This document shows, piece by piece, positions 43 through 16,800 of a stretch of 23,553 nucleotides of DNA. The notes below the pieces were generated by a model. That model was not told where the DNA came from. It was given only the letters and a program-made list of their open reading frames with translations, and searched no databases. Origin of the DNA: a virus; IMG/VR virus record IMGVR_UViG_3300013126_000251, positions 1 through 23,553 of that record; one strand, written 5' to 3'. Made by a program: the position numbers and the translations under genes. Each line of letters opens with the position of its first letter. The stretch's first letter is position 1.

Positions 43-54
43 GGGTCGGGCCTC

Positions 55-482: not shown

Positions 483-488
483 GACGGG

Positions 489-902: not shown

Positions 903-1300
903 CGCGCCGCCTTTCGCGCCGGCGGCGCGAGCTGCAGCTTGTTCAGCCAGTTGGCGCGGCGGCCGATCGGCGGCGGCGCGCCGCCGTCGACGCCCACCAC
1001 CTGGCGCAGGTTGCGGTCGACCGCGGCCGTCAGGCGCTTGCCCTTCATGATGAAGAGCGGCGGCTTCGGGCCGCTGTCGCGGATCAGGCGCCACGTGCAC
1101 TCGTGGTAGCCGACGCGCTCGTCGTCGGCACGCACGTAGCCAGTGCGGCTTAGGAACCGCAGCTCGCGCTGCACCGTGTTCTTCGGCCGGCCGGTGACGG
1201 CGACCAGGTGCTGCGTCGTGGCGCTGCGCAGGATCCTGAGGGTCTGCCACAGGATCTCGCGCTGGCGCGGCACGCGCGGCGGCTTCAGGGGTCCGCTCAT
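899..1300 (-). CDS. Winged-helix DNA-binding protein (133 aa)
   Basis: Residues 12-60 read as a winged helix: REILWQTLRILRSATTQHLV, then a recognition-helix region with VTGRPKNTVQRELRFLSRTGYV, then a hairpin leading to ECTWRLIRDSG. The C-terminal half is basic (MKGKRLTAAVDRNL, later RRANWLNKLQ), which would suit DNA contact. It starts ten bases after the MuB-like ATPase stop and its own stop overlaps the next start. Such small wHTH proteins are common downstream of MuB in Mu-like prophages of alphaproteobacteria. The target and direction of regulation are unknown. The fold call is moderately sure; the function is not. Confidence 0.65.
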   Translation of the reverse strand: MSGPLKPPRVPRQREILWQTLRILRSATTQHLVAVTGRPKNTVQRELRFLSRTGYVRADDERVGYHECTWRLIRDSGPKPPLFIMKGKRLTAAVDRNLRQVVGVDGGAPPPIGRRANWLNKLQLAPPARKAAR

Positions 1301-1310
1301 GGTGCGGGCC

Positions 1311-2096: not shown

Positions 2097-2128
2097 TTTG
2101 GTATCTCACTCTTCGTTGCGAGTTGCCG

Positions 2129-2160
2129 GAGCCGGTCGGTGTTGCAAGCGCCGCCGGCTC
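2129..2160 (-). other. Inverted repeat in the transposase-ATPase gap
   Basis: The 85-base gap between the MuA-like and MuB-like genes contains a 7-bp inverted repeat, GAGCCGG/CCGGCTC, separated by 18 bases. It is the largest gap in this otherwise near-overlapping leftward operon. There is no U-run after it on the leftward transcript, so it is not a classical terminator. It could weakly attenuate or process the mRNA, or be chance in GC-rich DNA. Confidence 0.25.
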
Positions 2161-2181
2161 TTCTCGTGTTTGGCGCGGCCT

Positions 2182-4494
2182 TCAGCCCGCGCTGTCCTCC
2201 TCGACCATGCGATGGGCTTTCCATTCGCCGGTGGTCGGGTAGATCTGCAGCCAGTGGCGGTCGTCGGCGGCGATCTCCGCGCCGGCGTCGGCCTCTTCCT
2301 TCAAGAGCTTCCAGCGCGCGTAGCGCTCGTGCGGCTGTTCCTCAGGCAGCGCCGGCGCGTCGAACGCGGCGACGAAGGCGGCGTGACGTTCCTGCTCCTC
2401 GGGCGTGGCCTCCGGGATCTCGCGGCGGCCCTGCGAGCGGACGGCGCGCGCCGCCTCCTCGAGGGCGGGCGTCAGCCAGGTCACGTTCGAGCTGGGGGCG
2501 GCGGGCGGCGGCGCTTCGCCGATCATGCGGGCCGCCACGGCGTGGACGTCGGCCTGGCGCGCGAAGCGGCGCAGCTCGGCCTTCCCGGCCTTCACGATCG
2601 CGTCCTGCTCGGCGCGCACCCGCATCGCCATCTCGGCGCGGTCGAGGCCCTTCAGCTCGGCGTTGACGGCGATGCCGACGAAGGCCCAGGGATCGCTGTC
2701 GGTGTAGACCCAGACCTGGCCGAGATCGTCGGGATCGAGCCGGACCTGCACGCGCTCGCCGACATCCATGCCGGCGCAGACATAGTCGATGCCCTCGACC
2801 GAGACGCCCTTGCGCGTGATCGTGCGGACGTGGTCGCGCGCCGGCGGCATCAGCAGCATGCCGATCGCCGCCGGGTCGGCGAATTTCTGCGGATGGGCCG
2901 CCACGCCCTCGACCCACACGTCGTGCGGCGTGCGGCCGTCGAGCCCGGCATGCGGCGAGACGTCGTAGTCGTTGGCGATCCAGCCGGCCAGGCGGGCCTG
3001 CAGCTCCTCGCCGGTAAGGTCGACGGCGAACACCTTCTCGTCGCTCTCGCCCAGGCGCTGGGCGAAGGAACGCCGCGCCTCGATCTCCTTGCGGGCCGCC
3101 ACGTCGGGCCCGACGTAGCCCGGCTGGTAGGGCATGAAGCCGTGCTGCACGGTGCCGATGGCGCGCTCGACGAACGGCTTCTTCTCCGGCGAGTAGGGCG
3201 GCGTCGGCTGCAGCACGATCTCGAGCTGCGTCATGGCGAGGACGAAGTGCTTCGACGTGAAGTCGGAGCCGTTGTCGGTGACCAGCACCTCGGGCACGCC
3301 CCACGTGGCGATCGCGCGGGCGACCAGGAGCAGCGAGGCCGCGGTGCGCGGCGTGCGCGAGACCAGCGCCATCATGCGGCGCGAGAAGACGTCGACGACG
3401 ACGTAGATCGAATGGCGGCCGTCGAGACAGAGCACGTCGGCCGGCGAGGCGTCGATCTGCCAGCGCTGGTTCGGCCGCTCGATGCCGCCCGAGGCGTTGC
3501 CGAGCGCGAACCGGAACTTGGAGCGGTAGCCGTCGGGATCGTTGAGCGCCGACAGCACGGCGGCGTTCTGCGCGTCGGCCTTCCACTTCGCGAGGAAGCG
3601 CGCGATCGCGCCCTGCGACGGCAGCGCCATCATGAGCCCGAGGCGGTCCGGCGCGCCCTGGGGGAACTTGTGCGCGACCAGCTTGGCGAGGCCCTGGGCG
3701 CTGATCGCCGGCTGGCGGACGTGGCAGCCCAGCACGAACTCGGCCAGCTCGGCCGACTGGTCGAACACGGACTTTCGACCGCAGTTCGAATATCGGTCGA
3801 CCAGCTCGTGGGCGCGGCCGGCGGCGCGCGCGGCGAGCCAGCGCTGAAGCGTGCGGCGGCTGAGCCTGGCGAGCAGCGGCCGCGCCCACTCCGGCAGCAC
3901 GACGTGCCCGGCCTTCACCGCCTGCACGAAGGGATCGAGCGACGCGCGATCGGAGCGTCCGCCCCGGAAGCGGTCGAACTCGGCGAGCAGAACCTGACGG
4001 GCGCTCAGCCGCTCGGCCTGCCGCGCCTTGAGAGTGGAAGCGACGGTGGCGGGGATGGGGGCGGGCACGGCCGCGCGATTGGCGGGGCTGGCGGCAGAAC
4101 GATCGGCGGGACGGTGCGTCGCCGCGATGACGCGCCGGCGCAGGATCTCGCCGCGCACGTCGGCCGGCAGGGCGGAGAGGGCGAACTCGCGGCCGCCGCC
4201 GCGGCCCTGCCGCTCGCGGCTCGACCAGCGCTGCCGCGTCGCCAGCTTGGAGATCTGTTCGCGCCGCTGCGGCAGCCCGTCGAGCCTGAGCGCGGCCAGC
4301 TCGGCCGCCGAAAAAAAGTCGGCCCCGACATCGACCATCTCGCCTCGGTGATCGCCGGGGGCGGGTACGCGGTCGGTGTCGGGGCCAGTCGATCCGATCG
4401 CCGAGGGGATGGCTGGCGATCGGGAGGCTGCGTCGCCGGAGAGGGAGGTCTTCGGCGCGGGCTGCAGCGAACGGGTTGAAAGTCGGCGGGCCAT
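2182..4494 (-). CDS. MuA-type DDE transposase
   Basis: Catalyses integration and replicative transposition of the phage genome. Counting from the GTG one codon upstream (771 aa), residues about 58-118 are the Mu-type DNA-binding domain (FFSAAELAALRLDGLPQRR, then REFALSALP). The catalytic core carries D349 (WQIDASP), D408 (VTDNGSDF) and E444 (KPFVERAIGT). A MuA-type C-terminal barrel follows near 555-600 (GKGV-like TRKGVSVEGIDY, VQVRLDPDD). The C-terminal 100 residues are charged helix, where MuA contacts MuB. The ATG at 4494 overlaps the Ner-like stop as TGATG; GTG at 4497 or the internal ATG at 4338 (GAGG four bases upstream, just before the DNA-binding domain) are alternatives. The D-to-E spacing of 35 residues is shorter than in Mu's own transposase. 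Confidence 0.93.
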   Translation of the reverse strand: MARRLSTRSLQPAPKTSLSGDAASRSPAIPSAIGSTGPDTDRVPAPGDHRGEMVDVGADFFSAAELAALRLDGLPQRREQISKLATRQRWSSRERQGRGGGREFALSALPADVRGEILRRRVIAATHRPADRSAASPANRAAVPAPIPATVASTLKARQAERLSARQVLLAEFDRFRGGRSDRASLDPFVQAVKAGHVVLPEWARPLLARLSRRTLQRWLAARAAGRAHELVDRYSNCGRKSVFDQSAELAEFVLGCHVRQPAISAQGLAKLVAHKFPQGAPDRLGLMMALPSQGAIARFLAKWKADAQNAAVLSALNDPDGYRSKFRFALGNASGGIERPNQRWQIDASPADVLCLDGRHSIYVVVDVFSRRMMALVSRTPRTAASLLLVARAIATWGVPEVLVTDNGSDFTSKHFVLAMTQLEIVLQPTPPYSPEKKPFVERAIGTVQHGFMPYQPGYVGPDVAARKEIEARRSFAQRLGESDEKVFAVDLTGEELQARLAGWIANDYDVSPHAGLDGRTPHDVWVEGVAAHPQKFADPAAIGMLLMPPARDHVRTITRKGVSVEGIDYVCAGMDVGERVQVRLDPDDLGQVWVYTDSDPWAFVGIAVNAELKGLDRAEMAMRVRAEQDAIVKAGKAELRRFARQADVHAVAARMIGEAPPPAAPSSNVTWLTPALEEAARAVRSQGRREIPEATPEEQERHAAFVAAFDAPALPEEQPHERYARWKLLKEEADAGAEIAADDRHWLQIYPTTGEWKAHRMVEEDSAG

Positions 4495-4826
4495 CACGCG
4501 GCCCGCTCGTGGGGATTGGTGCGGGAAGCGGGGATAGTCTCAGAGGGGCCGCAATCGTTCCTTCTGGACTCCTTCTTGCCGCCGCGTTTAATCGGCACGT
4601 CTTGGCGGTCGTAGCGGGGGGGCCAGATCACATGGGCCGGAACGCCGATCGTGCGGGCGATGATCCGTTCGACCTTGGGCCAACGCTTCACCAGGCAGAC
4701 GCTCACGGCCGACGGCGAGAGATTGTGGCGTATCGACAGCCCTCGTTGCGTGAAGCCCTTGCGCTTCAACGCGGCGACGATGTCGGCCTTGTGCATTCCC
4801 TTCGGAGGTTTGGACCCGCTTTGCAT
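4494..4826 (-). CDS. Ner-like HTH regulator
   Basis: The 110-residue product contains a Ner/Nlp-type DNA-binding domain at about residues 11-72: MHKADIVAALKRKGFTQRGL, NLSPSAVSVCLVKRWP, then IIARTIGVPAHVIWPPRYD. The ending in a V-I-WP-P-RY motif is typical of that family. In Mu, Ner turns down both the repressor and early promoters when the lytic cycle starts. Here it is the first gene of the leftward transposase operon, divergent from the repressor, exactly as in Mu. The basic tail after residue 75 is unusual and may be disordered. The start is uncertain: the first ATG has only a distant GGGAG, and the second (residue 11, 4796) would begin right at the domain but has a GAAGGG that is too close. 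Confidence 0.82.
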   Translation of the reverse strand: MQSGSKPPKGMHKADIVAALKRKGFTQRGLSIRHNLSPSAVSVCLVKRWPKVERIIARTIGVPAHVIWPPRYDRQDVPIKRGGKKESRRNDCGPSETIPASRTNPHERAA

Positions 4827-4864
4827 TCCAGCTCGGCTCGCTCCCGCATATCTGCGTTAGTGAA

Positions 4865-4893
4865 CGCTAATCTGCGGGTGTCGGCCTTGTCAA
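4865..4893 (-). promoter_or_regulatory. Candidate early promoter (leftward, toward ner/transposase)
   Basis: On the minus strand a perfect TTGACA lies at 4888-4893, with a 17-base spacer to TTAGCG at 4865-4870, a poor but possible -10. The -10 falls inside one operator half-site and the predicted start of transcription falls near another, so repressor binding would block it. The distance to the Ner-like start is about 40 bases. Confidence 0.45.
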
Positions 4894-4913
4894 CTCATAT
4901 ATGCGGTTTCAAC

Positions 4914-4927
4914 CCGCTCAAGAGCGG
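4914..4927. promoter_or_regulatory. Short palindrome CCGCTC-AA-GAGCGG
   Basis: A perfect 6-bp-arm inverted repeat with two bases between the arms sits between two operator half-sites, upstream of the repressor start. It contains the CCGC core shared by the half-sites and may be a further regulator site. Alternatively it is chance, as such palindromes are easy in GC-rich DNA. Confidence 0.35.
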
Positions 4928-4957
4928 TCCCGCGGATCAAATAAGCGGGGCGTCCTG

Positions 4958-5710
4958 ATGGCTCCACGCCCCAAGGATGTCGACCTGCGCCTCGCGCCAT
5001 TGGCTGAGGGTTTCGGCAACAGGGTGAATGTTGCAGCGTTGCGCATTGGCACGCGGCCCGAGGCGGCGGCGGCGATGGGCCTGTCCGACGATCAGCTCGG
5101 TCGCATCATCAAGGAGAAGGCCGTGCCGACGCTGCCGGCGATCGCGGGCCTCGCCAAGGCAAGCGGCTGCACGCTGGAGTGGCTGGCGTTCGACCAGGGC
5201 TCGCAGTTTGCCGAGACGTCGTTCGCCGTGCCGATCGTCGCCAAGGTCGCAGCGAAGGTGATGGCGACCACCAACTACGACAGCGTGCTCGCCGACACCG
5301 TGCTTGTGCCGCGCTACGACGTGCGGTTCTCGGCCGGGCCCGGCGCGTCGGGCGGCGACGACCGGATCGTGGCGACGCTGCCCTTCTCGCGGCGCTATCT
5401 CGAAGGCGTGCTGCGCTGCGCGCTCGACGACGTGGCGATCGGCGAGGCCGACGGCGACTCGATGGAACCGACGATCGGCGACGGCGACCTGCTCATGGTG
5501 CACCTGAAGCGCAAGCGGATCTCGGACGGGCACATCTTCGTGCTGCGGCTCGCCGACGAGCTGGTGGTGAAGCGCGTGCAGCGCGAGCTCGACGGCTCGC
5601 TGATCCTGATGAGCGACAACAAGGCCTATGCCGATCGGCGGCTGACCCAGGCCGAGGCCGACCAGGTCGACGTCATCGGCCGGCTGATCTGGAGCGGCGG
5701 GCCGGTCTAG
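4958..5710 (+). CDS. cI/LexA-type phage repressor (HTH plus peptidase S24)
   Basis: Maintains lysogeny by shutting the early promoter and is likely relieved by RecA-assisted self-cleavage. From the ATG used here (250 aa), residues about 20-75 form an HTH (GTRPEAAAAMGLSDDQLGRI, then VPTLPAIAGLAKASGCTLEW). The C-terminal S24 domain has Ser158 in GDSMEPTI and Lys195 in ELVVKRV. That gap of 37 equals S119-K156 of E. coli LexA. A possible scissile Ala126-Gly127 lies in FSAGPGA. An ATG at 4901 would add 19 residues, but those read through the operator sites and look non-coding, so 4958 is preferred despite a modest GCGGGG binding site. Its 3' end overlaps the convergent secreted-protein gene. Confidence 0.9.
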   Translation: MAPRPKDVDLRLAPLAEGFGNRVNVAALRIGTRPEAAAAMGLSDDQLGRIIKEKAVPTLPAIAGLAKASGCTLEWLAFDQGSQFAETSFAVPIVAKVAAKVMATTNYDSVLADTVLVPRYDVRFSAGPGASGGDDRIVATLPFSRRYLEGVLRCALDDVAIGEADGDSMEPTIGDGDLLMVHLKRKRISDGHIFVLRLADELVVKRVQRELDGSLILMSDNKAYADRRLTQAEADQVDVIGRLIWSGGPV

Positions 5711-6306
5711 CGCGCGCGTGCCCGCGCCGCGGCATCCTTCAGCCACCCGGGCTGCGTCATGTCGCTGAAGCGCGCGCCGAATGTCGGGACGTTGAACTCG
5801 GCGCCCGGCGAGGAGACACCTTCGGCATAGCCTCGCCGCTCGTCGATCATGAGCGAGCCGCTCGCGACCACGGCATCGTCGAACCGCATCGTGCGCAGGA
5901 GGTCGACGACGGCGCCGGGCTCCGGGGGGATGGCCGTATCGGCGATGTTCGTGAAGAGCGGCTTCGCGCCGTTGGCCACGGCGGCGAGCAACGTGTAGAC
6001 GCGCCGGCGATCGTCGGACGGCCGCGCGAGCTGCACGACGAACACCCATCTCGAGAAGATCCCGGACGGACCCAGCACGCGTCGCAGCTCACGGCCGCGC
6101 TCGACCACCAGGCGATCGAGCGTCGCCTGGTCGGCGTGCTTGAAGGCGAGGGCGGCGTAGCGCTCGATCACGTCCGTGAACTCGCGTTGCGCGACGGGGA
6201 TGGCCTCGGGCGGCGGCGCCAGCCGCGCCCATGACCTGGTCGAGACGGCCATGGGCAGGGAGGCGAGGGCGCCGACCAGGGCACAGCGGCGGGATAGGGC
6301 GGCCAT
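5707..6306 (-). CDS. Exported protein of unknown function (199 aa), candidate moron
   Basis: Residues 1-27 look like a cleavable signal peptide (ALSRRCALVGALASLPMAVS), with a twin-arginine SRR in its n-region and a possible cut near TRSWA. The mature part is soluble alpha/beta-like, with charged helices (EFTDVIERYAALAFKHADQA), a central WVFVVQLARP strand and a Gly/Pro-rich C-terminus. No catalytic motif is recognised. It is transcribed toward and overlaps the end of the repressor gene, and lies 33 bases downstream of a second exported-protein gene. The start has no good ribosome binding site. In a prophage, such a cell-envelope gene next to the repressor would fit superinfection exclusion or lysogenic conversion; a host origin is the alternative. 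Confidence 0.7.
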   Translation of the reverse strand: MAALSRRCALVGALASLPMAVSTRSWARLAPPPEAIPVAQREFTDVIERYAALAFKHADQATLDRLVVERGRELRRVLGPSGIFSRWVFVVQLARPSDDRRRVYTLLAAVANGAKPLFTNIADTAIPPEPGAVVDLLRTMRFDDAVVASGSLMIDERRGYAEGVSSPGAEFNVPTFGARFSDMTQPGWLKDAAARARAR

Positions 6307-6339
6307 GGCGGCGAGTGTCGCGGGCCGCCGCGCCGGCGT

Positions 6340-6780
6340 CTAGCTCCCGGCGGCGCAGCGGTCGACGATCCCCTTCGCACCGGCATCGACGCCGCCCAGG
6401 TCGGCGACCAGCTTGCGCCGGCGCCACTCCACGATGCTGCCCGCGCCGTCGGCGCGCACCGTGTAGATGGCCATGACGTCGGGCGTCGCCTTCGAGGCGA
6501 TGACGATGGTCGCCGTCGACCTCTCCCGATCGAAGGTCGGGGTGGCGGCCCATTCCTGCGCCGAGCGCCGCGCGATGCAATTCGCCATCGGCTCCCAGGG
6601 AACGGCCTGGCGCTGGGTGAGCCGGACGGGTTGGGCCTCGACGTCGTCGATCGAGGTGCAGGCGCCGCTCGTCACCGCGAGCGCGAGGGCGGCAAGGATC
6701 GCCGCGCGGCGGGACAGCCGGGGGGACAGCCAGGGGGACAGCCGGCAGGGCCGCCGGCAGGGCAGATGGGGAAGGCGCAT
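6340..6780 (-). CDS. Probable lipoprotein or secreted protein (146 aa), candidate moron
   Basis: The N-terminus has a long basic leader with a four-residue repeat (LSPW-LSPR-LSRR). A hydrophobic segment (AAILAALALAVTSGAC) ends at a cysteine that may be the lipidated residue, although the lipobox is poor (S-G-A-C rather than L-A-G-C). The mature part has CIARRSAQEW, TIVIASKATPDVMAIYTV and a last Cys (VDRCAAG), giving two further cysteines that could form a disulfide. The start has AGGAGC six bases upstream. It is followed by the second exported protein, so the two form a small leftward operon starting in the 6781-7069 gap. The family is unknown. Confidence 0.65.
   Translation of the reverse strand: MRLPHLPCRRPCRLSPWLSPRLSRRAAILAALALAVTSGACTSIDDVEAQPVRLTQRQAVPWEPMANCIARRSAQEWAATPTFDRERSTATIVIASKATPDVMAIYTVRADGAGSIVEWRRRKLVADLGGVDAGAKGIVDRCAAGS
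6711..6746. repeat. Three tandem 12-bp units (GGGACAGCC(G/A)GG)
   Basis: Three consecutive 12-base copies differ at one or two positions and are followed by a degenerate CCGGCAGGGC pair. They lie inside the leader of the exported-protein gene, and because the unit is a multiple of three, copy-number changes would lengthen or shorten the leader by four residues without a frameshift. Confidence 0.8.
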
Positions 6781-6806
6781 TCGGGCTCCTTTATTGCCGC
6801 CCGGTT

Positions 6807-6837
6807 GGGGCCGGGGCCGGGGCCGGGCGGGTGGGGG
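6807..6837 (+). other. G-quadruplex-like G-tract cluster
   Basis: Six runs of three to five G are separated by one or two bases (GGGG-CC repeated, then GGG-C-GGG-T-GGGGG). This meets the usual G4 pattern on the plus strand, which is the template strand for the exported-protein gene starting about 27 bases away. A regulatory effect is only a possibility. Confidence 0.5.
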
Positions 6838-6955
6838 AAGCCTGAGTTTCGGGCCGCCCGGGCCGGCCGGTCCAGCCCGCCGCCTGGGGGTATCGGCCGA
6901 TTTGGCCGTGGGGCGCCTGCAGGGGGGAAGACGGGCCGGGACTACCGGGAAATTC

Positions 6956-6976
6956 TTCGAACGCGTTTTCGAACGC
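6956..6976. repeat. Direct repeat TTCGAACGC x2, 12-base period
   Basis: Two exact copies of TTCGAACGC, each containing the palindrome TTCGAA, are separated by GTT. They stand about 95 bases upstream of the protease start, in a local AT-rich patch. They could be activator or repressor sites for the late operon, or transposase-binding sites of a phage end, since Mu end sites also carry CG-TTTTCG-type cores. Sequence alone does not decide. Confidence 0.4.
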
Positions 6977-7069
6977 CCGCAGGGCCGGGGAAGGGCGGTT
7001 CGGGGGCGGACCGCAGGGGAAGCCCTTCCCTCGTGAACCGTTTCCGGCGCCGACCTAGCGTCCCCCGGC

Positions 7070-8278
7070 ATGCTGAACCGCGTCAAGCATCTCCTGAGCG
7101 GCCTTTCCCGGAGGCTCGTATGTGACCCACGCCAAGTGGCCCTGCTCGACGCCTCGGGCGGCGGGCTGACCGCACCGCTGTCGATCGAGCTGCTGTCGTC
7201 CGGCGCGAACGATCCGCCGGAGTGGGTGCGGTTCCTGGCGCCGGGCGTGAACAAGGGACGGTCCGGCCGCGAGTACACGGTCCTCAGCGTCGACCAGGTC
7301 ACGCGAGCCTCGAATGCCTGGAAGGGCGCGATCGATCTCATCTGCTGCTTCGAGCACCAGTTCGACCGCGCGCGCCAGAACGGCCAGCCGGCGCCGGCCG
7401 CCGCCTGGATCAAGGAGCTGTCGGCGACCGGCCCCGACGGTTCGCCCGGTCTGTGGGCGCGCGTCGAGTGGCTGCCGGAGACCGCGCAGCTCATCCGCGC
7501 CCGCAAGTATCGCTACCTCTCCGCCGTCATCGAGCACGACGCCGCCGGCAACGTGCTGCGCGTGCTGCGCGCGACGCTGACGAACCAGCCGGAGATGGAC
7601 ACCGCCACCGCGCTTTTTTCTGCACTGCCAACCAAGGAGCCCACCGTGAACCTGCTGCAGAAGCTGCTGGCCGCCTTCGGCCTCGCCGCCACCACGAACG
7701 AGGACGCCGCCGTCGCGCACGCCTCGGCGCTCGCCACCCTCTGCGCCGCGCTCGCCAAGCAGGTGGGCGTCGAGATCGCCGCGCTGTCGGCGATGACCGC
7801 CGACCAGGTCACGACGGCGCTGCAGAAGCCGCTGGCCGAGCGGATCGCCACGCTGTCGGTCCTCGCCAAGGTCACGGGCGAGGCGACGCCCGAGGCGATC
7901 GCCGCCGGCATCCGCGCCCAGGGCGTCGATCCGGCACAGCATGTCGCGCGCTCCGTCTACGACGACGTCGCCGCCCGCCTCGCCACGCTGACCGCCGAGA
8001 CCCGCGCGCGCACGATCGACGAGGCGACGAAGGCCGGCAAGCTCACGCCCGCGATGAAGGGCTGGGCCGAGAGCATGACGCTCGAGCAGCTCACCGCGTT
8101 CCTGTCGACGGCGCCCGTGATCGTCAATCCGAACGGCGGCGCGCCCGCTGGACAGACGCAGGTCGCGATCCTGTCGGCCGAGGAGAAGGCGCAGGCCCGG
8201 CAGATGGGTGTCACAGACGAGGACTTCCTGGCGGCCAAGAAGGCCCAGGCGGCCTTCGAAGCCCGCTTCACCGCCTGA
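7070..8278 (+). CDS. Mu I-like prohead protease with C-terminal scaffold
   Basis: First gene of the rightward virion operon. Residues about 30-175 match the Mu-like protease family: LSSGANDPPEWVRFLAPG, GREYTVLS, WIKELSATGPDG, GLWARVEWLPET, then RKYRYLSAVIEHD and TLTNQPEMD. Residues 193-402 are Ala/Glu/Lys-rich helix, as expected of a scaffold removed during head maturation. The 402-residue length is close to Mu gpI (about 360). No good ribosome binding site precedes the ATG, but it is the first in-frame start after an upstream TGA. The usual upstream neighbours, terminase, portal and MuF, are absent here. A T6 run (7614-7619) marks the linker between the two halves. Confidence 0.85.
   Translation: MLNRVKHLLSGLSRRLVCDPRQVALLDASGGGLTAPLSIELLSSGANDPPEWVRFLAPGVNKGRSGREYTVLSVDQVTRASNAWKGAIDLICCFEHQFDRARQNGQPAPAAAWIKELSATGPDGSPGLWARVEWLPETAQLIRARKYRYLSAVIEHDAAGNVLRVLRATLTNQPEMDTATALFSALPTKEPTVNLLQKLLAAFGLAATTNEDAAVAHASALATLCAALAKQVGVEIAALSAMTADQVTTALQKPLAERIATLSVLAKVTGEATPEAIAAGIRAQGVDPAQHVARSVYDDVAARLATLTAETRARTIDEATKAGKLTPAMKGWAESMTLEQLTAFLSTAPVIVNPNGGAPAGQTQVAILSAEEKAQARQMGVTDEDFLAAKKAQAAFEARFTA
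7646..8278 (+). CDS. Nested scaffold protein (gpZ-like internal start)
   Basis: An in-frame GTG at codon 193 of the protease gene is preceded six bases upstream by AAGGAG, a much stronger ribosome binding site than that of the full-length gene. It would give a 210-residue product covering just the helical scaffold half (VNLLQKLLAAFGLAATT to the end). Phage Mu makes its scaffold gpZ, and lambda its Nu3, in the same nested way. What is seen is the RBS, frame and domain boundary; actual use of the start is inference. Confidence 0.6.
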   Translation: MNLLQKLLAAFGLAATTNEDAAVAHASALATLCAALAKQVGVEIAALSAMTADQVTTALQKPLAERIATLSVLAKVTGEATPEAIAAGIRAQGVDPAQHVARSVYDDVAARLATLTAETRARTIDEATKAGKLTPAMKGWAESMTLEQLTAFLSTAPVIVNPNGGAPAGQTQVAILSAEEKAQARQMGVTDEDFLAAKKAQAAFEARFTA

Positions 8279-8310
8279 TCCCGTTCACGAACCCTCACTA
8301 AGGAGCTGAC

Positions 8311-8724
8311 ATGGCTGCAACTGCTTCGGACCGCGTCACCCAGACGCGCTCCGGCGAGATCGTCTCCCTGCCCGTGGCTGCGGCGACCAAGATCCCCGCC
8401 GGCGTCATGGTGCAGAACGATGCCACCGGCTGGGCCGTGAACGGCTCGGCCACGATCGCCAACCGCACGATCGGCATCAGCGTCGCCCAGGCCGACAACT
8501 CGGGCGGCGCGAACGGCGCGATCAAGGTCGACGTGCGGCGCAAGATCGTCGCCATCTTCGGCAACTCGGCCGCCGGCGACCTGATCGCCGCCGCCGACAT
8601 CGGCAACGACTGCTACGTAGTCGACAACCAGACCGTGGCCAAGACGAACAACGGCGGCGCGCGTCCCGTGGCCGGCCAGATCGTCGACGTCGACAGCCGC
8701 GGCGTCCACGTCGAGTTCGCGTAG
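8311..8724 (+). CDS. Capsid decoration (cement) protein, 137 aa
   Basis: A small protein encoded between the protease/scaffold and the major capsid gene, the usual place for a head-stabilising protein. It is rich in beta-type sequence: SGEIVSLPVAAATKIPAGVM, ATGWAVNGSATIANRTIGIS, VDVRRKIVAIFG, then VDVDSRGVHVEFA. This resembles the DUF2190/capsid-cement group found beside gpT in B3-like and RcapMu-like phages. It likely trims the outer capsid surface after expansion. AAGGAG six bases upstream of the ATG makes the start secure. The exact family is from memory. Confidence 0.75.
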   Translation: MAATASDRVTQTRSGEIVSLPVAAATKIPAGVMVQNDATGWAVNGSATIANRTIGISVAQADNSGGANGAIKVDVRRKIVAIFGNSAAGDLIAAADIGNDCYVVDNQTVAKTNNGGARPVAGQIVDVDSRGVHVEFA

Positions 8725-8773
8725 ACGGACCGGCGCCCCCTCCCCCCACGACTGACCACCAGGAGCACCACGC

Positions 8774-9676
8774 ATGATCCGCGTTTCGAGCGGCCGGCTT
8801 GCCACCATCAACATCGGCTTCCGCGCCAACTTCCAGCAGGGCCGCATCGCGGCCATGGCCGACAACCACTACCAGCGCATCGTCACGCCGGTTCCCTCGA
8901 CCACGCGCGAGGAGGAGTACGGCTGGCTGAAGGACATCCCGCAGATCCGCGAGATGGGCGGCGAGCGCATCATCAACGCGCTGGCCGAGGACGGCTACAA
9001 GATCAAGAACAAGAAGTTCGAGCTGACGATCGGCGTCAAGGGCGACGACATCAACGACGACCGGGTCGGGATCTACGCGCCGCGCTTCACGATGATGGGC
9101 GACGAGGTCGCACGCTTCCCAAACCGCCTGGTGTTCGACCTGCTGAAGGCCGGCTTCGCCGCCGAGTGCTACGACCAGCAGTACTTCTTCGACACCGATC
9201 ACCCCTACATCAAGGCCGACGGCTCGATGGGCACGCAGAGCAACTACCAGGCCGGCGCCGGCACGCCCTGGTATCTCCTCTGCACCAAGCGCCCCCTGAA
9301 GCCGATCATCCATCAGACGCGTGAGGAGTTCGAGTTCGTCGCGCTCGATCGTCCGACCGACCAGAACGTGTTCATGAAGGACGAGCTGCTCTACGGCGTC
9401 GATGGCCGCTGCAACGTCGGCTACGGCTTCTGGCAGATGGCGCTGGGCTCCAAGGCCGACCTGACGGACGCGAACGTGAAGGCGCTGCGCACGATCGGCG
9501 AGAGCCTGCTGGGCGACCACGGCAAGGCGCTGGGCCTCACCTACGACCTGTTCGCCGGCCCGCCGGCGCATCGCGACAAGGCGGACGAGCTGTTCAACAC
9601 GCCGACCCTCGCGGCCGGCGGCGGCAACCCCCTCTACAAGGCGTTCGACACCCTCATCACGCCGTACCTCATCTAG
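8774..9676 (+). CDS. Major capsid protein, Mu gpT-like
   Basis: Forms the icosahedral shell. At 300 residues it is nearly the same length as Mu gpT (about 305). The N-terminus matches the family (GRLATINIGFRANFQQG, then STTREEEYGWLKDIPQIREM). The middle carries LTIGVKGDDINDDRVGIYAP, and then a FFDTDHP segment, a hallmark I associate with this family. The C-terminus ends in ALGLTYDLFAGPPAHRDKA and a last strand. AGGAG lies eight bases before the ATG. The 141-base gap behind it is filled by strong hairpins, which may set its high expression relative to downstream genes. Confidence 0.92.
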   Translation: MIRVSSGRLATINIGFRANFQQGRIAAMADNHYQRIVTPVPSTTREEEYGWLKDIPQIREMGGERIINALAEDGYKIKNKKFELTIGVKGDDINDDRVGIYAPRFTMMGDEVARFPNRLVFDLLKAGFAAECYDQQYFFDTDHPYIKADGSMGTQSNYQAGAGTPWYLLCTKRPLKPIIHQTREEFEFVALDRPTDQNVFMKDELLYGVDGRCNVGYGFWQMALGSKADLTDANVKALRTIGESLLGDHGKALGLTYDLFAGPPAHRDKADELFNTPTLAAGGGNPLYKAFDTLITPYLI

Positions 9677-9805
9677 CGACAACCCCTGCGGACAGGGCGG
9701 CGGCCCGCGGCACCGGCGACACGGTGCAGCCGCCGCCCGCTTCGCAAGCCACCGGGCCGGTGCCGTCCGCGGCACGTCTCCCGGTGGCTTCCGTGGCGAC
9801 AACCC
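9676..9805 (+). repeat. Two nested hairpins flanked by GCGACAACCC direct repeats
   Basis: The gap behind the capsid gene holds two elaborate stem-loops. The first pairs 9695-9704 with 9729-9738 (10 bp) around an inner 6-bp stem (9710-9715/9722-9727). The second pairs 9746-9756 with 9780-9790 (11 bp) around an inner 6-bp stem (9760-9765/9770-9775) with a TCCG loop. Exact 10-base copies of GCGACAACCC stand at 9676-9685 and 9796-9805, one at the capsid stop and one just before the next ribosome binding site. There is no U-run, so it is not a typical intrinsic terminator. An mRNA stabiliser or an inserted palindromic element are both possible. Confidence 0.7.
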
Positions 9806-9817
9806 GAGGAGAAGACG

Positions 9818-10078
9818 ATGGCGCGCCCCAAGGTGCAGGTTTCGAGGTTCCTAGTCGACGGCAGGGTTCCGCCGTTCGGCGTGATCGTGAAGAAGGCGAT
9901 GTGGCGCGGCGGCCGGCAGTGGTCGGCCGGCGTCCACATCTTCGACACGCCGGAGAAGATCGACGAGCTGGGCGAGCCGGAGGCGGTCGCCGCGATGCTC
10001 GACACGCTCGCGCTCTATCCCGACGACTTCGAGATCAAGACGGCGGCCGCGGCCGAGAAGGAGCCGCCGAACGCGTAG
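9818..10078 (+). CDS. Small head-region protein, unknown (86 aa)
   Basis: The product is basic at the start (MARPKVQVSRFLVDGRVPPF) and has a beta-type core with VIVKKAMWRGGRQWSAG and HIFDTPEKIDELGEPEA, then an acidic tail. The ATG has GAGGAG about seven bases upstream. It lies between hairpin-rich gaps in the head region. Mu-like phages often have one or two small unassigned proteins between gpT and gp36. I do not recognise the family; a head-completion or regulatory role would be guesswork. Confidence 0.6.
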   Translation: MARPKVQVSRFLVDGRVPPFGVIVKKAMWRGGRQWSAGVHIFDTPEKIDELGEPEAVAAMLDTLALYPDDFEIKTAAAAEKEPPNA

Positions 10079-10088
10079 GCATTCCCGG

Positions 10089-10173
10089 AGGGGAGCGCGC
10101 GTACCAACGCTCCCCTGGCCGCCGGCGCGGATGCCGGCGGCCGCGTTTCAAGCCCCGCCTCGAGGCGAGGCTT
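10089..10173 (+). repeat. Three consecutive hairpins in a 118-base gap
   Basis: Stem 1 pairs 10089-10097 with 10108-10116 (AGGGGAGCG/CGCTCCCCT, 9 bp). Stem 2 pairs 10117-10126 with 10133-10142 (GGCCGCCGGC/GCCGGCGGCC, 10 bp, 6-base loop). Stem 3 is AAGCC/GGCTT (10150-10154/10169-10173) around the perfect palindrome CGCCTCGAGGCG. They follow one another almost without spacing. There is no U-run. Together with the preceding gap, this brackets the 86-residue gene with structured RNA. Confidence 0.65.
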
Positions 10174-10196
10174 CAGTCGCGGACACCGGAGCCACC

Positions 10197-10475
10197 ATGA
10201 AGCCCACGATCGGTCGCATCGTCCATTTCTTCGACGCCGCTTTGCGTGCCGACGCCAACAACCACGTCGGCCCCGGCCCCTATGCGGCCGTCGTCACACA
10301 GGTGTTCGACGGCGCTTGCGTCAACCTCAAGGTGATCGTGCCCTTCGGCGACGACCGGCACGAGGGCAGCGTGCCGGAGAAGAAGGCGGGCGACTACAGT
10401 GCCCGCTACTGGACCTGGCCGCCGCTCACGCCGCCGGCCGCGCCGATCGGCGTCGGCTACGGCGATCGCATCTGA
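10197..10475 (+). CDS. Small phage protein, unknown function (92 aa)
   Basis: Reads MKPTIGRIVHFFDA, then GPGPYAAVVTQVFDGACVNL, then KVIVPFGDDRHEGSVPE and a closing ARYWTWPPLTPP. This pattern (an N-terminal GRIVH, a central PYAAVVTQV, and a Trp-rich W-WPP end) is one I recall from small proteins of many alphaproteobacterial phages and prophages, always without known function. The ATG has GGAG five bases upstream; a longer frame from 10131 would read through hairpins 2 and 3 and is rejected. Its stop overlaps the next start as TGATG. Confidence 0.65.
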   Translation: MKPTIGRIVHFFDAALRADANNHVGPGPYAAVVTQVFDGACVNLKVIVPFGDDRHEGSVPEKKAGDYSARYWTWPPLTPPAAPIGVGYGDRI

Positions 10476-10903
10476 TGGCCTATACGAACACCGCAGGCAT
10501 GACGGCGCGCTTCGGCGAGGCGCTGCTGAAGCTCGTCGCCGATCGGGACAACGACGGTACGATCGATGAGGCGGTGGTCGCGCAGGCGATCGCCGACGCC
10601 GACGCGCTGGTGGATCTGCACTGCCGCGGCCGCTACGCCGTGCCGCTGGCGCCGGTGCCCGCCGAGATCGAGCGCGCAGTGTGCGATCTCGCGCACCGCT
10701 TCCTCTACGGCAACAGCGCGGACGTTCCCGATCCGGTCGTGTCGGCCGACAAGGTGGCGCGCGATCTGCTGAAGTCGATCGCCGACGGCAAGGTGCAGCT
10801 CGACGCCGCGCCGGCGCCGGCCGCGAGCGACAGCGCAGCGCTCGAGATCGAGGTCGCGGGCGAGGCGCCGTTCTTCACCGGCGACGGGCTGAAGGGCTTC
10901 TGA
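10475..10903 (+). CDS. Mu gp36-like head-tail connector protein (DUF1320)
   Basis: The 142-residue product matches the gp36/DUF1320 pattern: MTARFGEALLKLVADRDNDG near the start, then IDEAVVAQAIADADALVDLH, CRGRYAVPL and PAEIERAVCDLAHRFLYGN. It ends in an acidic linker and PFFTGDGLKGF. Members of the family are thought to be head-completion or adaptor proteins bound at the portal vertex. The gene starts within the upstream stop (TGATG) without a good ribosome binding site of its own, so translation is likely coupled. Position after the capsid gene and before gpG agrees with Mu. Confidence 0.82.
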   Translation: MAYTNTAGMTARFGEALLKLVADRDNDGTIDEAVVAQAIADADALVDLHCRGRYAVPLAPVPAEIERAVCDLAHRFLYGNSADVPDPVVSADKVARDLLKSIADGKVQLDAAPAPAASDSAALEIEVAGEAPFFTGDGLKGF

Positions 10904-10965
10904 TGGTCGGGCGCCTCGTCCTCCTGGCAGGCGTGCCGGCGCTCACGCCGCGGAGCGCGTCGTGA
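10903..10965 (+). CDS. Possible 20-residue relay peptide
   Basis: A tiny frame (MVGRLVLLAGVPALTPRSAS) starts in the stop of the gp36-like gene (TGATG) and stops in the GTG start of the next gene (GTGA). It exactly bridges the 58-base space. It may serve only to carry ribosomes across and couple translation. The peptide itself has no recognisable feature. Confidence 0.25.
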   Translation: MVGRLVLLAGVPALTPRSAS

Positions 10966-11471
10966 GCGCCACCGCGATCCTCACCATCGATGGCGCCGGT
11001 CTCCGCGAGCTCGCGCGCCAGCTCGACGACGTCGACGGCGACAAGGCCGAAGCGCTCGAGGCGATCGGCGGCGGCTGGGAGACGCTGACCAAGGAGCACT
11101 TCGACACCGGCATCGGGCCCGACGGCGTTCCCTGGAAGCCGAGCCAGCGCGTGCTCGCCGGCAAGAAGCGCGGCGGCGGCACCCTCGTGCTCGAGGGCGA
11201 CCTGCGCGACGCCAACAGATCCGAGGTGGTCGGCAGCGACGCGGTCGAGCTGGGCAACAACAGGATCTATGCCGCCGCGCATCAGTTCGGCGCCACCATC
11301 CAGCGCGCCGGCGCCCATGCCGTGCCGCTCGTGCTGCCGGCCGGTGCGGTCGGCGGCACGGTGATCACACTGCCGGCGCGGCCCTTCATCGGCTGGAACG
11401 CCGAGCACGACGCCATGGCCGCCGAGATCCTGGAAAGCTTCATCGCCAGGAAGACGGGAGCGCAGGCATGA
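10962..11471 (+). CDS. Phage virion morphogenesis protein (Mu gpG-like)
   Basis: Belongs to the virion morphogenesis (Phage_tail_S, gpG/gpS) family, which acts at the head-tail junction. The 169-residue product has the family's order: an N-terminal charged helix (LRELARQLDDVDGDKAEALE), then HFDTGIGPDGVPWKPSQR, LVLEGDLRDA, YAAAHQFGATIQ and TLPARPFIGW near the end. PARPFIG and HQFG are the diagnostic blocks. The GTG start is supported by GGAG seven bases upstream and the overlap with the short relay frame. Its stop overlaps the next ATG as ATGA. Confidence 0.88.
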   Translation: MSATAILTIDGAGLRELARQLDDVDGDKAEALEAIGGGWETLTKEHFDTGIGPDGVPWKPSQRVLAGKKRGGGTLVLEGDLRDANRSEVVGSDAVELGNNRIYAAAHQFGATIQRAGAHAVPLVLPAGAVGGTVITLPARPFIGWNAEHDAMAAEILESFIARKTGAQA

Positions 11472-11896
11472 GCGACCTGCCGTCCCTGGTGATCGCGCAA
11501 CTGGCCGGCACCGCGCCCTTCGTGTGGGTGAAGGGCGCGCGCGAGTTCGGCGCGGCGCTGCAGGCGCCGCCGGTCGACAAGATGCCGGCGGCGTTCGTGC
11601 TGCCCTACGCCGAGAGCTACCGGCCAAACGCGCGGCTCAATCGGCTGAGCCAAGCCGGCAAGGAGCAGGTGACCATCGCCGTCATGGTCGCGGTGAAGCC
11701 CGCGATCGGCGCCGACGTGCACAACCCGCTGGCGGCGCCCCGCGATGCCCTGGTCGCCCGCCTGCTCGGCTGGCAGCCGGAGAGCGAGCACGGCGAGCTC
11801 GAGATCGTGAGCGGCGCGCTCACCGAGGCCAAGCCGACGCACCTCACCTACCAGTTCGTCTTCCAGCGCGACCACACGGTCGCCGTCACCGCCTGA
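11468..11896 (+). CDS. Tail terminator-type protein (Mu gp37-like)
   Basis: A 142-residue alpha/beta protein: SLVIAQLAGTAPFVWVKGAR, MPAAFVLPYAESYRPN, EQVTIAVMVAVKPAIGAD, AARDALV-like helix, LLGWQPE, then THLTYQFVFQRDHTV at the end. The layout (helix, strand with VLP, strand with IAVMVA, LLGW) is that of tail-terminator and gp37/DUF1834-type proteins, which cap the tail and join it to the head. Position between gpG and the tail tube agrees. GGGAG lies eight bases upstream of the ATG. The family assignment is by pattern and place, so moderately sure. Confidence 0.65.
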   Translation: MSDLPSLVIAQLAGTAPFVWVKGAREFGAALQAPPVDKMPAAFVLPYAESYRPNARLNRLSQAGKEQVTIAVMVAVKPAIGADVHNPLAAPRDALVARLLGWQPESEHGELEIVSGALTEAKPTHLTYQFVFQRDHTVAVTA

Positions 11897-11907
11897 AGGA
11901 GCACGCG

Positions 11908-12114
11908 ATGGCCAAGAGCAGCACAACCGCCTTTCCGACCGCAGGCGGCAGCTATGTCGTGAAGCCCGACGGCAAGGTCGACCAGGTCGAGGCGACCAAG
12001 CCGCTGCCCGCCGTTCATGTCCACGACGATCACAAGCCGGCGCCGATGCCGGCCGGCCCGCAGGCGGCCCCGCAGCCGGCGGCGACGCCGCCCGCACCGA
12101 AGGCGAAGGAGTAG
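11908..12114 (+). CDS. Small Pro/Ala-rich protein (68 aa)
   Basis: A strong AAGGAG seven bases before the ATG shows that this is a real gene. The first 30 residues (FPTAGGSYVVKPDGKVDQVE) could form a small beta unit; the rest is Pro/Ala-rich with a His-containing AVHVHDDHKPAP and is probably disordered. In Mu-like phages a comparably small gene (gp38-type) sits just before the tail tube or sheath gene, but the sequence does not clearly match that family. Function unknown. Confidence 0.6.
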   Translation: MAKSSTTAFPTAGGSYVVKPDGKVDQVEATKPLPAVHVHDDHKPAPMPAGPQAAPQPAATPPAPKAKE

Positions 12115-12120
12115 CGATCC

Positions 12121-13041
12121 ATGTCCATCCGTTTCGAGCGCAAGGCCGCGCTGCTCAAGACCGAGGCCGTCTACGCGACCGATCCCGTTCCGACCGGCGC
12201 CGCCAATGCCGTGCTGCTGAAGCGCGGCTCGTTCAACCCGCTGGAGGGCGAGCACCTGCCGCGCGAGCTGCTGCGCACCGGCTTCGGCAGTCATCCCGGC
12301 ACCTTCGTCGGCCGGCACGTCTCGTTCGAGCTGGCGGTGGATCTCGCGGGCTCCGGCGCCGCCGGCACGGCGCCGGCCTACGGCGCGATGCTGCGCGCGG
12401 CCGGCCTCGCCGAGACGATCGCCGCCGGCGTCAGCGTCACCTACACGCCGGTCGACACCGGCTTCGAAAGCCTCGGCGCCTACTTCAACCACGAGGACAC
12501 GCGCCACATCGCGACCGGCGCGCGCGGCAACGGCCGGCTGCTGTTCCAGAGGCAGCGCAATCCGGAACTCGTCCTGAACGGCCTCGGCCTGTGGCAGTCC
12601 GACACCGCCGTCGCGTTCCCCGCGCTGACCACGGCGGCCTGGAGGGATCCGCTGCCGTCGACCAAGGCCAACACGCCCACCTTCACGATCGACGGCGTGC
12701 CGGTCGTCGCGTCGAGCTTCGAGCTCGATCTCGGCCTGTCGGTCGCCTACCGCGAGCGCATCAACCAGCAGGACGTCCCGGTCCGCGATCGCCGGCCGAA
12801 GATCAAGGCGCTGATCGAGGAGCTGCCGATCGGCACCAAGGACTTCTTCGCCATGGTCGGCGGCGCGCCGGTGCCGCTCCAGTACGTGCACGGCGTCGGC
12901 GCCGGCAACGTCATCACCATCGCCATCGGCCTGGTGCAGCTCAAGCAGGTGCCGCGCCAGGAGGAGGAGACCGACACGATGCTGAACGTCGAAGGCGAGG
13001 TCACGCTGGGATCGCCCGAATTCTCCATCGCCTTCACCTGA
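12121..13041 (+). CDS. Major tail tube protein (siphovirus type)
   Basis: The 306-residue protein forms the stacked rings of the non-contractile tail. The N-terminus (FERKAALLKTEAVYATDPVP, then LLKRGSFNPLEGE) is typical of tail tube proteins of lambda-V-like and RcapMu-like phages. Further support comes from FVGRHVSFELAVDLAGSG, PAYGAMLRAAGLAETI and a late IALVQL-like strand before LGSPEFSIAFT. GAAGGAG lies about nine bases before the ATG. No sheath gene is present, so the virion has a flexible tail rather than Mu's contractile one. It is followed directly by the tail chaperone pair. Confidence 0.87.
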   Translation: MSIRFERKAALLKTEAVYATDPVPTGAANAVLLKRGSFNPLEGEHLPRELLRTGFGSHPGTFVGRHVSFELAVDLAGSGAAGTAPAYGAMLRAAGLAETIAAGVSVTYTPVDTGFESLGAYFNHEDTRHIATGARGNGRLLFQRQRNPELVLNGLGLWQSDTAVAFPALTTAAWRDPLPSTKANTPTFTIDGVPVVASSFELDLGLSVAYRERINQQDVPVRDRRPKIKALIEELPIGTKDFFAMVGGAPVPLQYVHGVGAGNVITIAIGLVQLKQVPRQEEETDTMLNVEGEVTLGSPEFSIAFT

Positions 13042-13071
13042 TCTCGTTAAGCCACGAAAGGACGACAGCCC

Positions 13072-13404
13072 GTGTTCGATTTTCAGCAAGCGTATCGCTT
13101 CAAGTGGCCGGTGAAGGTGCTCGTGCCCACGCTGGAGGGGCAGCAGGAGAAGACGTTCACCGGCATCTTCCGCCTGATCGGCAAGGAAGAGCGCGAGGAG
13201 ATCGACAGGGACTTCGGCACGCTCGGCGCCACCGAGCTGGTGCGGCGGGCCTGGGAGGGTTGGGACCAGCTCACCGAACGGGGCGAGCCGCTCGCCTACA
13301 GCGACGCCCGGCGCGACGAGCTCTACCAGGTGCCGTTCATCGCGTCGGGCGTCGCGCGCGCCTACTGGACGGCGATCACCGGGGCGCTGCTCGAAAAAAA
13401 CTGA
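13072..13404 (+). CDS. Tail assembly chaperone, short form (lambda gpG-like)
   Basis: A 110-residue protein between tail tube and tape measure, the universal place for the G chaperone that keeps tape measure protein soluble during tail assembly. It starts at GTG with AAAGGA about ten bases upstream. It contains VKVLVPTLEGQQEKTFTGIF, FRLIGKEEREEI and YQVPFIASGVARAYWTAIT, and ends in LLEKN at a stop just after an A-run. The small size and ending at the slippery site fit family G. The extended product is given separately. Confidence 0.85.
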   Translation: MFDFQQAYRFKWPVKVLVPTLEGQQEKTFTGIFRLIGKEEREEIDRDFGTLGATELVRRAWEGWDQLTERGEPLAYSDARRDELYQVPFIASGVARAYWTAITGALLEKN

Positions 13405-13838
13405 AGCGCGCGGCGCGGCAGTGGGTCGACTGGCGATCCGCCGCCGCCCCGCGCCGGACCACGGACGACGAGCGCGGCGAGATCGCGGCACAGCTCGCGG
13501 AACTCGGGGCCGACCCAGCGGAGACGATGTCGGAATGGACCGGCGGCACGATTGCAGAGACCACGGACGGGGCGGGACCGCTCGCGCTGCCGGTCGAGCT
13601 GGAGCCGGCGGTGAGCGCGTTCCTGCTCGCCGCGACGCAATGGCGCTGGGCGACCGCCGGCCGCTCGATCGTCGTGCAGGGCTTCCCGATCGTCGAGATG
13701 GAGTCGCGCCGCGTCGGCCTGGACTATGGCGGCCTGCGCGCGGCGCTGGCCTTCGCCGGCCGCCGGCTCACGCCGGAGGACTTCGCCTCGGTGCGCGTCA
13801 TGGAGGCGCACGCGCTGAAGCTGTTGGCGCGATCGTGA
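13072..13838 (+). CDS. Tail assembly chaperone, -1 frameshift fusion (gpGT-like)
   Basis: Join of 13072-13401 with 13401-13838 after a -1 slip, giving about 255 residues. The second frame continues KKLKRAARQWVDWRS and later TGGTIAETTDG, VSAFLLAATQWRWA, IEME-like VEMESRRVGLDYGG and FASVRVMEAHALKLLARS, then stops ten bases before the tape measure gene. That region has no credible start of its own at the right place, and its protein-like composition is only explained by read-in from G. In lambda the T half recruits tail tube protein to the tape measure complex. Seen: site and frames. Inferred: efficiency. Confidence 0.82.
13395..13401 (+). promoter_or_regulatory. Programmed -1 frameshift site, A AAA AAC
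   Basis: The zero-frame codons are GAA AAA AAC TGA, so the heptamer A AAA AAC is in perfect slippery register and is followed at once by the G stop. A possible stimulatory stem (GGCGCGG at 13412-13418 with CCGCGCC at 13449-13455) begins 11 bases downstream. This matches the conserved G/GT frameshift of long-tailed phages. Confidence 0.9.
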
Positions 13839-13848
13839 GGGCGCGCGC

Positions 13849-16800
13849 ATGACCGAAGTCAAGGCACGCCTCACCCTCGACACGTCGGACTTCGAACGGG
13901 GTTCCGCCAAGGTCGACCAGACCCGCGAGCAGTTCCAGCAGAAGACCGACCGGCGCAACGCCGAGGCCGAGGCCAAGGAGGCGGCGCGCAGCAAGGCCGC
14001 CGCCGATCGCGAGGCGCGTCGCCTGGCCGACAGGGAGGCGAAGGAGCAGGCCGCGACCGAGCGTGACGCCAAGCGCGCCGCCGCGACCGTCGAGCGGGAG
14101 GCCAGGCGCCAGGCCGACGCCGAGGCGCGCGAGCAGTCGACGGCCAAGCGGCGCGAGGAGCGCGCCCAGGCCGAGGCGGCGAAGGCCGCCGAGCGCGCGG
14201 CCCGCCAGGCGGCCACTGCGCAACGTACGGCCGAGCAGCAGGTCGCCAACGAGAACCGGCGGGTGGCCCAGCGCGCCGGCCAGCTCCAGCTCCAGCTCAA
14301 CGACATCTTCACGTCGATCGGCAGCGGGCAGAACCCGCTCACCGTGGCGATCCAGCAGGGGCCGCAGATCACCCAGATCTACGGCGGCCTCGGCGCGACG
14401 ATCGCCGCCATCCCGAAGGGCCTGCTGCTGGCCGGCGCGGCGGCGGCGGCCTTCTTCGGCATCCTCGCCGCCGGCGTGTCGGCCGCGGCCGAGACGGCGC
14501 AGCGGCAGCGCCAGTTCAACATCGAGCTGCAGGCGACCGGCAACATCGCGGCCGTCACGGCGCAGCGCCTCGACGAGCTGGTGCAGATCGAGGCGCAGCG
14601 GCCCGGCGCCAACCGGGCCGACACGGCGTCGTCGCTCGGCGTCTTCGCCCGCAACCCGGCGATCTCGGCCGAGGAGACCCTGGCCCGGGCGCTCGGCGTC
14701 GCGCGCGACCTCGCGCGGGTCAACCAGGTCGAGCTGCCGGCCTCGGCGCAGGAGCTCAACCAGTCGCTCGACGGCACCGCCGCCGGCGCGCGCAAGCTCG
14801 ACGCCGCCTACAACATCCTGACGGCGGCGGAGTACGAGCAGATTCGGCTGCTCGACGAGCAGGGCCGTAAGGTCGAGATCGTCAACATCGTCCTGGCCGC
14901 GGCCGAGCGCCGGTTCAAGGGCCTGAACGAGCAGGGCATCTCGCCGACCTCGAAGTACCTCAACGAGCTGGGCAACGCCTGGACGAATTTCGTCGACAAG
15001 GTCGGCCAGTCGAAGCTCGCCCGGGGCACGATGTGGGCCGGCGCCCAGGCGCTGAAGGGCGGCGCGATGCTGTTCGGCGGCCCGCCGCAGCAATCGCCGA
15101 ACGCCGGCGTGCCCGACGCCAAGGACGTCGCCGACGCCCAGGAGTCGCTGCGCGTCGCCGAGGCGCGGCTCGCACAGCTCCGCGAGCAGCACGGCGCGGC
15201 GCGCCCCGAGGCGAAGCCGTGGATCCAGGCCGAGATCGACAAGGCCAACGCGCTGGTCAAGGACCTGCAGGCGAACGTCGCCAACCTGCGCGCCCAGACG
15301 GCCGGCGCCACCGAGCAGCAGGCGGCGGCGCAGGCGCAGTCGGTGCAGGCCGAGACGGAGCGCGTCAAGAAGGCGGCGCAGGACACCGTCGCGGCGCTCA
15401 ACACCGTCGAGCTGCAGCGGCGCAAGCTGCTCGCCGATCGGGAGAAGCTTTCGGGCTACCTGCAGAACGGCCTGGTGTCGCCGGAGGATGCCAAGGCGGC
15501 ACGCGAGGCGATCCAGACGATCGACGGCCAGCTCGCCGCGCTGAACACGACGGCCGAGAAGCTGCACATCGACCAGGTGATCGAGGAGAAGATCGCCAAG
15601 CTGCCGCCGCACCTGCAGCCGCTGGAGCGCGCCTTCCAGGCGGCGTTGAAGCAGGGCGAGGCGGCGGGCCTCAAGGGCGCGGCGCTGATCGAGTTCGCCG
15701 AGAAGGCGCGGGCCAATGTCGCCCAGCAGCTCGCCTCGCAGACGCAGGAACAGATCGCGCTGCTGGGCGAGGAGGCGCAGGCCGCCCTTCGCGTCGCCGA
15801 CGCCTACGGCAGGAGCCGGGCCGAGGGCCTGCGCGCCGCGGCGATCGGCGCGGCGGGCGTCGCCGAAAGCCAGGGCCAGATCGCACCGGGCACCGCCGGC
15901 GCCGTCGCCCGGCAGCAGCTCGAGAAGCAGGCGGCGGCCACGGTCGCCGCCGCCGCCGAGAAGAACCGCGCCTACGGCGAGGAGATCGCGGCGCTCGAAC
16001 GGTTGACGGCGGCCGAAGCCCAGTCGGTCGAGGCGGCGCGCGAGGCCGAGCGCGTCAACCGCGTGGCCGCCTTCGCGGCCGAGCTGCGCGCCCAGGCCGA
16101 GGCGTCGGGCAGCGTGGCGATCGTCGCCGCGGCCGAACGGCAGATCGCGAAGTACGACGAGCTCTCCCGCAAGCAGCTCGAGCTGGACCGCCGGCGGGCG
16201 GCCAACCAGCTCAACGCGCAGTTCGATCCCGACACGGCCTACGCGCAACAGATGGCCCAGCTCGCCGAGCTGGAGCGGACCGGCGTCCTCACCCCGCGCG
16301 CCGTGGCCGAAGCGACCCGGCAGTACGAGCAGCAACGGCTGGAAAGCAGCCGCGATGCGACGGATGGGATGATCGCCGGGCTGCGTCGCTATGCCGACGA
16401 GGCGACGAACGCCGGCCGGGCGGCGGGCGAGGGCATCGCGTCGGGCATGCGCACGGCGGAGGACGCCGTCGTGCAGTTCGCCATGACGGGATCGTTCAAC
16501 TTCAACCAGTTCGCCAACTCGGTGATCGCCGACCTGGTGCGGGTGGCGACGCGGCAGGCGATCACCGGGCCGCTGGCGAAGGCGGCGGGCTCGGCGCTGT
16601 CGGGGATCGGCGACTGGCTCGGCGGGATGTTCGGCGGCGGGAGCAGCGGCTTCAACGTGCCGGGCATCGGCACCGGCACCGGCTACACCTATCACGCCGG
16701 CGGCGTCGCCGGCGACGGGGGCGTGCCGACGCGCGTCCTGCCCCTCTCGGCCTGGCAGGGCGCGCCGCGCCTGCACGGCGGCGGCATCTCCGGCGGAATT

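Follow-up and report, generated by a model that had tools for sequence, protein, structure and literature searches.

Behind the capsid gene of a Mu-like transposable phage, we found a gap of 141 nt (gpT end 9676, next start 9818) filled by two nested stem-loops. Judged by their place and form relative to other Mu-like phages, these stem-loops are probably a post-capsid terminator or stabiliser hairpin, a version of one that Mu-like phages often keep (rough probability 0.6). The phage is the 23.5-kb virus record IMGVR_UViG_3300013126_000251, whose whole stretch of 23,553 nucleotides we call the window, and its parent contig spans 42 kb. The GC content is 70% in the phage and 77% in the post-capsid gap. 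Transposases A and B and a Ner-like repressor are encoded on the minus strand, and the region around the capsid gene is laid out as follows.

7070-8278, protease I
8311-8724, virion protein
8774-9676, plus strand, Mu-like major head (capsid) protein gpT (PF10124, E 2e-103; phrog_371, E 1e-98)
9676-9685, plus strand, direct repeat copy 1, GCGACAACCC, exact, overlapping the stop codon
9687-9746, plus strand, stem-loop 1 (-43.2 kcal/mol, z -3.8)
9746-9790, plus strand, stem-loop 2 (-33.1 kcal/mol, z -3.7), no T-tract behind it
9796-9805, plus strand, direct repeat copy 2, GCGACAACCC, exact, abutting the GAGGAG Shine-Dalgarno of the next gene
9818-10078, plus strand, 86-aa gene without a family match, in the position of Mu gp35 by gene order
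10197-10475, small gene
10472-10903, gp36

Stem-loop 1 consists of an outer stem of 6 bp (9687-9692/9741-9746), a main stem of 10 bp (9695-9704/9729-9738) and an inner stem of 6 bp (9710-9715/9722-9727), while stem-loop 2 has an 11-bp stem (9746-9756/9780-9790) enclosing an inner one of 6 bp (9760-9765/9770-9775). Both were also recovered by an inverted-repeat search. Folding and coordinates thus bore out the double nested hairpin with 10- and 11-bp stems, lying between exact copies of a 10-base repeat, that an earlier note on this DNA had described. The gap alone folded with a z of -3.66 (0/200 dinucleotide shuffles as good), positions 9660-9820 gave -3.33 against dinucleotide shuffles, and 9701-9800 ranked among the lowest-energy 100-nt stretches window-wide (-64.0, z -3.9). 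An Rfam scan returned nothing near the curated gathering threshold, only sub-threshold chance matches. The next gap (10079-10196, plus strand) holds three consecutive stem-loops, at approximately 10086-10116, 10116-10141 and 10149-10173 (-71 kcal/mol, z -4.2; 0/200 shuffles as good). The 86-aa gene, for which a search found relatives only in the two contigs of the same phage, is thus bracketed by hairpin clusters, one in each flanking gap.

The only relatives that bear the element are two contigs, both identical over it; in all other relatives the capsid proteins are at most 51% identical and the gap sequences unrelated, therefore we examined position and shape instead of sequence. We aligned 82 non-redundant Mu-like loci on the capsid stop codon (capsids at most 50% identical, except for the phage's own copy) and folded 70-nt segments from -900 to +900. 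The fold excess peaked exactly at the stop codon, with a mean z of -2.26 at offset 0 (49% of loci below -2) and -1.43 at +30, compared with about -0.3 elsewhere. Capsid gaps had a mean z of -3.04 (n = 45) versus -0.56 for other gaps of 40–300 nt in the same loci (n = 182; p = 5e-12), where the open reading frame starts were mechanically predicted and some gaps may be shorter than counted. The statistics to rely on are those at the level of clusters: with capsids collapsed at 65% identity the difference persisted (p = 0.0012), 11 of 23 clusters had a mean z below -2, and a strong post-capsid hairpin was missing in about half of the relative clusters. A further 22 prophage loci taken from whole genomes replicated the result (z -1.50 vs -0.30; p = 1.4e-4). 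At loci with a gene immediately after the capsid gene, the hairpin tended to sit after that gene (mean z -2.0 vs -0.4; p = 0.005), and in some short-gap loci (L262, L264) the fold signal is a coding inverted repeat at the next gene's start with a GFRRAG-type motif. The window's own gap shows its excess folding within ~100 nt of the capsid stop (z -3.7).

An alignable nested hairpin, built of an outer stem of 6 bp and an inner one of 12 bp, is common to eleven relatives, including those titled as Rhodobacteraceae genomes. In this alignment 96.9% of cells were paired and 11 of 18 pairs carried a compensatory change (0/500 shuffles), and sliding the partner by one column reduced pairing to ~56%. 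A covariance model built from the eleven (R1) gave hits behind the capsid gene in Rhodobacter phage RC1 and at one further locus (L037), and had no match away from the post-capsid site at E < 0.1. It did not match the window's stem-loops, which we therefore regard as analogues of the eleven-relative hairpin by place and form, claiming no common descent. As the window's close relatives all carry an unchanged copy of the element, its own base pairs lie beyond a covariation test. The earlier note had reasoned that relatives whose hairpins show compensatory changes while lacking the direct repeat would argue against insertion; this pattern was found for the site overall but not for the window's two hairpins, whose close copies are identical.

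The form of the hairpins varies with base composition. In Mu itself, AAAAGGCGGTTCAGACCGCCTTTT lies directly behind gene T, at the same site as in the window, between the major head gene and gp35 (NC_000929; locus L244, between 3913 and 3962). It has the shape of a classical terminator, with AAAA and TTTT on either side of a single 12-bp stem (a 24-nt-stemmed palindrome), whereas the nested stems in the window are two in number, larger, and not followed by a run of T's. Comparable post-capsid stems with T-containing tails behind them occur in SuMu and RC1. At loci below 60% GC, A's precede the stems and T's come after, as in an intrinsic terminator, with 3.1–3.2 T in the 8 nt after the stem versus 1.5–2.2 expected. 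Loci above 66% GC have 1.9 T of 8, still twice the expectation, and only 1 of 18 has at least four. The window falls in this second group: a GC-rich stem-loop stands at the gene end, and its GC core is followed by TTCCGTGG, with no T-run directly after the stem. A scan of 7000-14000 found no terminator-like site and, by sigma-70 consensus only, no promoter between the capsid and tail genes. Because the tail genes extend downstream to ~23.4 kb on the same strand as the capsid gene, with no recognised promoter between, a complete stop at the hairpins is unlikely, and leaky termination or 3'-end protection is the better guess. The suggestion that a stabiliser or attenuator sits behind the capsid gene gains support from position and form across relatives.

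Two measured systems place an element directly behind the major capsid gene, as in the window: T7, with terminator T-phi immediately behind capsid gene 10 (PMC5592923), and LUZ100, in which ONT-cappable-seq mapped a strong terminator right after the major capsid gene (PMC10134795). In both, transcription into the head-tail genes is limited and capsid mRNA is abundant, the role that we propose for the window's hairpins. They differ in being T7-type phages with a phage RNA polymerase, whereas the phage here is Mu-like and its stem-loops, which lack a T-tract, are known from sequence. A 3'-protecting hairpin structure between cistrons has been described for the puf operon of Rhodobacter (PMC7509114; PMC6238624, citing Klug et al. 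1987). As described there, puf resembles the window in that a single operon of a high-GC alphaproteobacterium has several GC-rich hairpins placed between its cistrons, and differs in being chromosomal, unrelated in sequence and of experimentally shown function. The puf hairpins alter the decay of mRNA segments such that upstream genes are over-represented.

We infer that the post-capsid hairpin could act by either of two routes. Late transcripts would run from the protease gene into the capsid gene, and RNA polymerase would then meet a strong hairpin, either right after the major head gene or after the gene that follows it. A fraction of transcripts may end there in the manner of an intrinsic terminator, a form that is clear in Mu and lower-GC relatives; where the T-tract is missing, as in the window, the hairpins may instead leave the message with a structured 3' end at which 3'-to-5' decay is slowed. 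By either route, capsid mRNA would be more abundant than that of the head-tail and tail genes farther downstream, which would fit the hundreds of capsid copies in each virion when operon neighbours are needed in few. We found no description of terminators behind Mu-like capsid genes in the literature searched, and a hairpin keeping its place through sequence turnover would be a general device for that ratio in single-operon phages. Extending this to Mu-like phages as a group is tentative, and we would sooner doubt than assert it: the post-capsid hairpin, kept by position and shape rather than sequence, might set capsid mRNA above tail-module mRNA throughout, the T-tract being lost in high-GC hosts as the terminator turned into a multi-hairpin stabiliser.

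The stem-loops might also have no function, a GC-rich non-coding gap in a GC-rich phage folding by composition and chance as other gaps do. The three hairpins of the gap at 10079-10196 would fit this, as would the z values below -3.5 that several further sites in the 23.5 kb reach and the lack of close homologues for testing selection. We consider it unlikely, however, as composition was controlled by the dinucleotide shuffles and the relatives are enriched for hairpins at this same site but not at other gaps. Less probable again is a translational insulator, in which the hairpins would keep the next ribosome-binding site apart from a capsid cistron under heavy translation and prevent coupling, while mRNA amounts would change little. 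The outer stem does stop close ahead of the next gene's AGGAG in several relatives (alignments A1, A2), and in the window stem-loop 2 stops ~15 nt short of GAGGAG, but the A and T flanks in lower-GC relatives are terminator-like and an insulator needs none.

We give the least credence, and very little, to a small palindromic element that inserted after the capsid stop, ahead of the next ribosome-binding site, and duplicated a 10-bp target, as the earlier note had raised. The flanks are indeed exact over 10 bp (copy 1 of GCGACAACCC begins on the final base of the capsid's TAG stop), collapsing them would leave a compact stop-to-start spacing of 21 nt, and only 0.2% of shuffled gaps had a 10-bp repeat in flanking position. 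Against this, a 10-bp repeat in any position occurred in 4.7% of shuffled gaps, 4% of the 131-nt segments of the contig have a 10-mer repeated at least 60 nt apart, and exact direct repeats of 10 bp or longer at a spacing of 60–200 number 76 in the window; the repeat by itself is a poor signal, not rare enough to demand explanation. The ends showed no terminal inverted repeats (8 of 25 end positions match), and in relatives the same site holds hairpins of different sequence. No more than one copy of the element is present in the window, in the 42-kb parent contig or in either of the two same-phage contigs. Distant blastn against phage and plasmid collections gave no second copy; all that matched were short GC-rich pieces of stem, most of them inside unrelated coding genes. 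Nor did the 9686-9795 element, which the earlier note had proposed to seek in the host, have further copies in four host-like genomes or ~390 Alphaproteobacteria; the DNA search of the latter yielded just five short stem-like matches. An exact-pattern scan of IMG/VR for the stem-2 arms found 113 stretches that carry such arms. We found no empty site, the two close relatives being identical over the element and others too distant. With a repeat this commonplace, no terminal inverted repeats and no further copies in the sequences searched, the insertion proposal is not supported, and a multi-copy element in the phage's host is improbable, as nothing in the data calls for one. The post-capsid gap of another locus (L298) also contains GCGACAACCCCT, to which we gave no weight, since about one such 12-mer chance match is expected per ~100 loci by rough estimate. 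A terminator or stabiliser hairpin remains our preferred reading of the stem-loops.

Several further features were observed at these loci. A second strong hairpin recurs in relatives (L064, L068, L073, L104 and L037, for example) ~2200–2550 nt before the capsid stop, in a gap of 44–161 nt at approximately the boundary before protease gene I; the corresponding gap in Mu is annotated with a gyrase cut site. L013 and L029 share an identical 36-nt post-capsid hairpin, GCCCGCCGCCCCGATTGTTGCCGCGGGGCGGCGGGC, in surrounding gap sequences that differ. In three Pasteurellaceae Mu-like prophages (L112, L110, L107) the post-capsid hairpin contains AAGTGCGGT, which we take to be the DNA uptake signal of Pasteurellaceae. 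Within the window, the leftward minus-strand transposase genes of 1-7070 adjoin a plus-strand CI-like repressor. Genes F and G, directly upstream of protease I in Mu, are absent there in this phage, and a Neck1/gpG-like match lies downstream at 10962-11471 instead. To the right of the window on the parent contig (L261; G001:38081-42015), inspection by eye identified two frames: one on the plus strand at ~2.5–3.6 kb that looks like a DNA cytosine methyltransferase, and one of 220 aa on the minus strand (1332-1994) that is SRAP/YedK-like.
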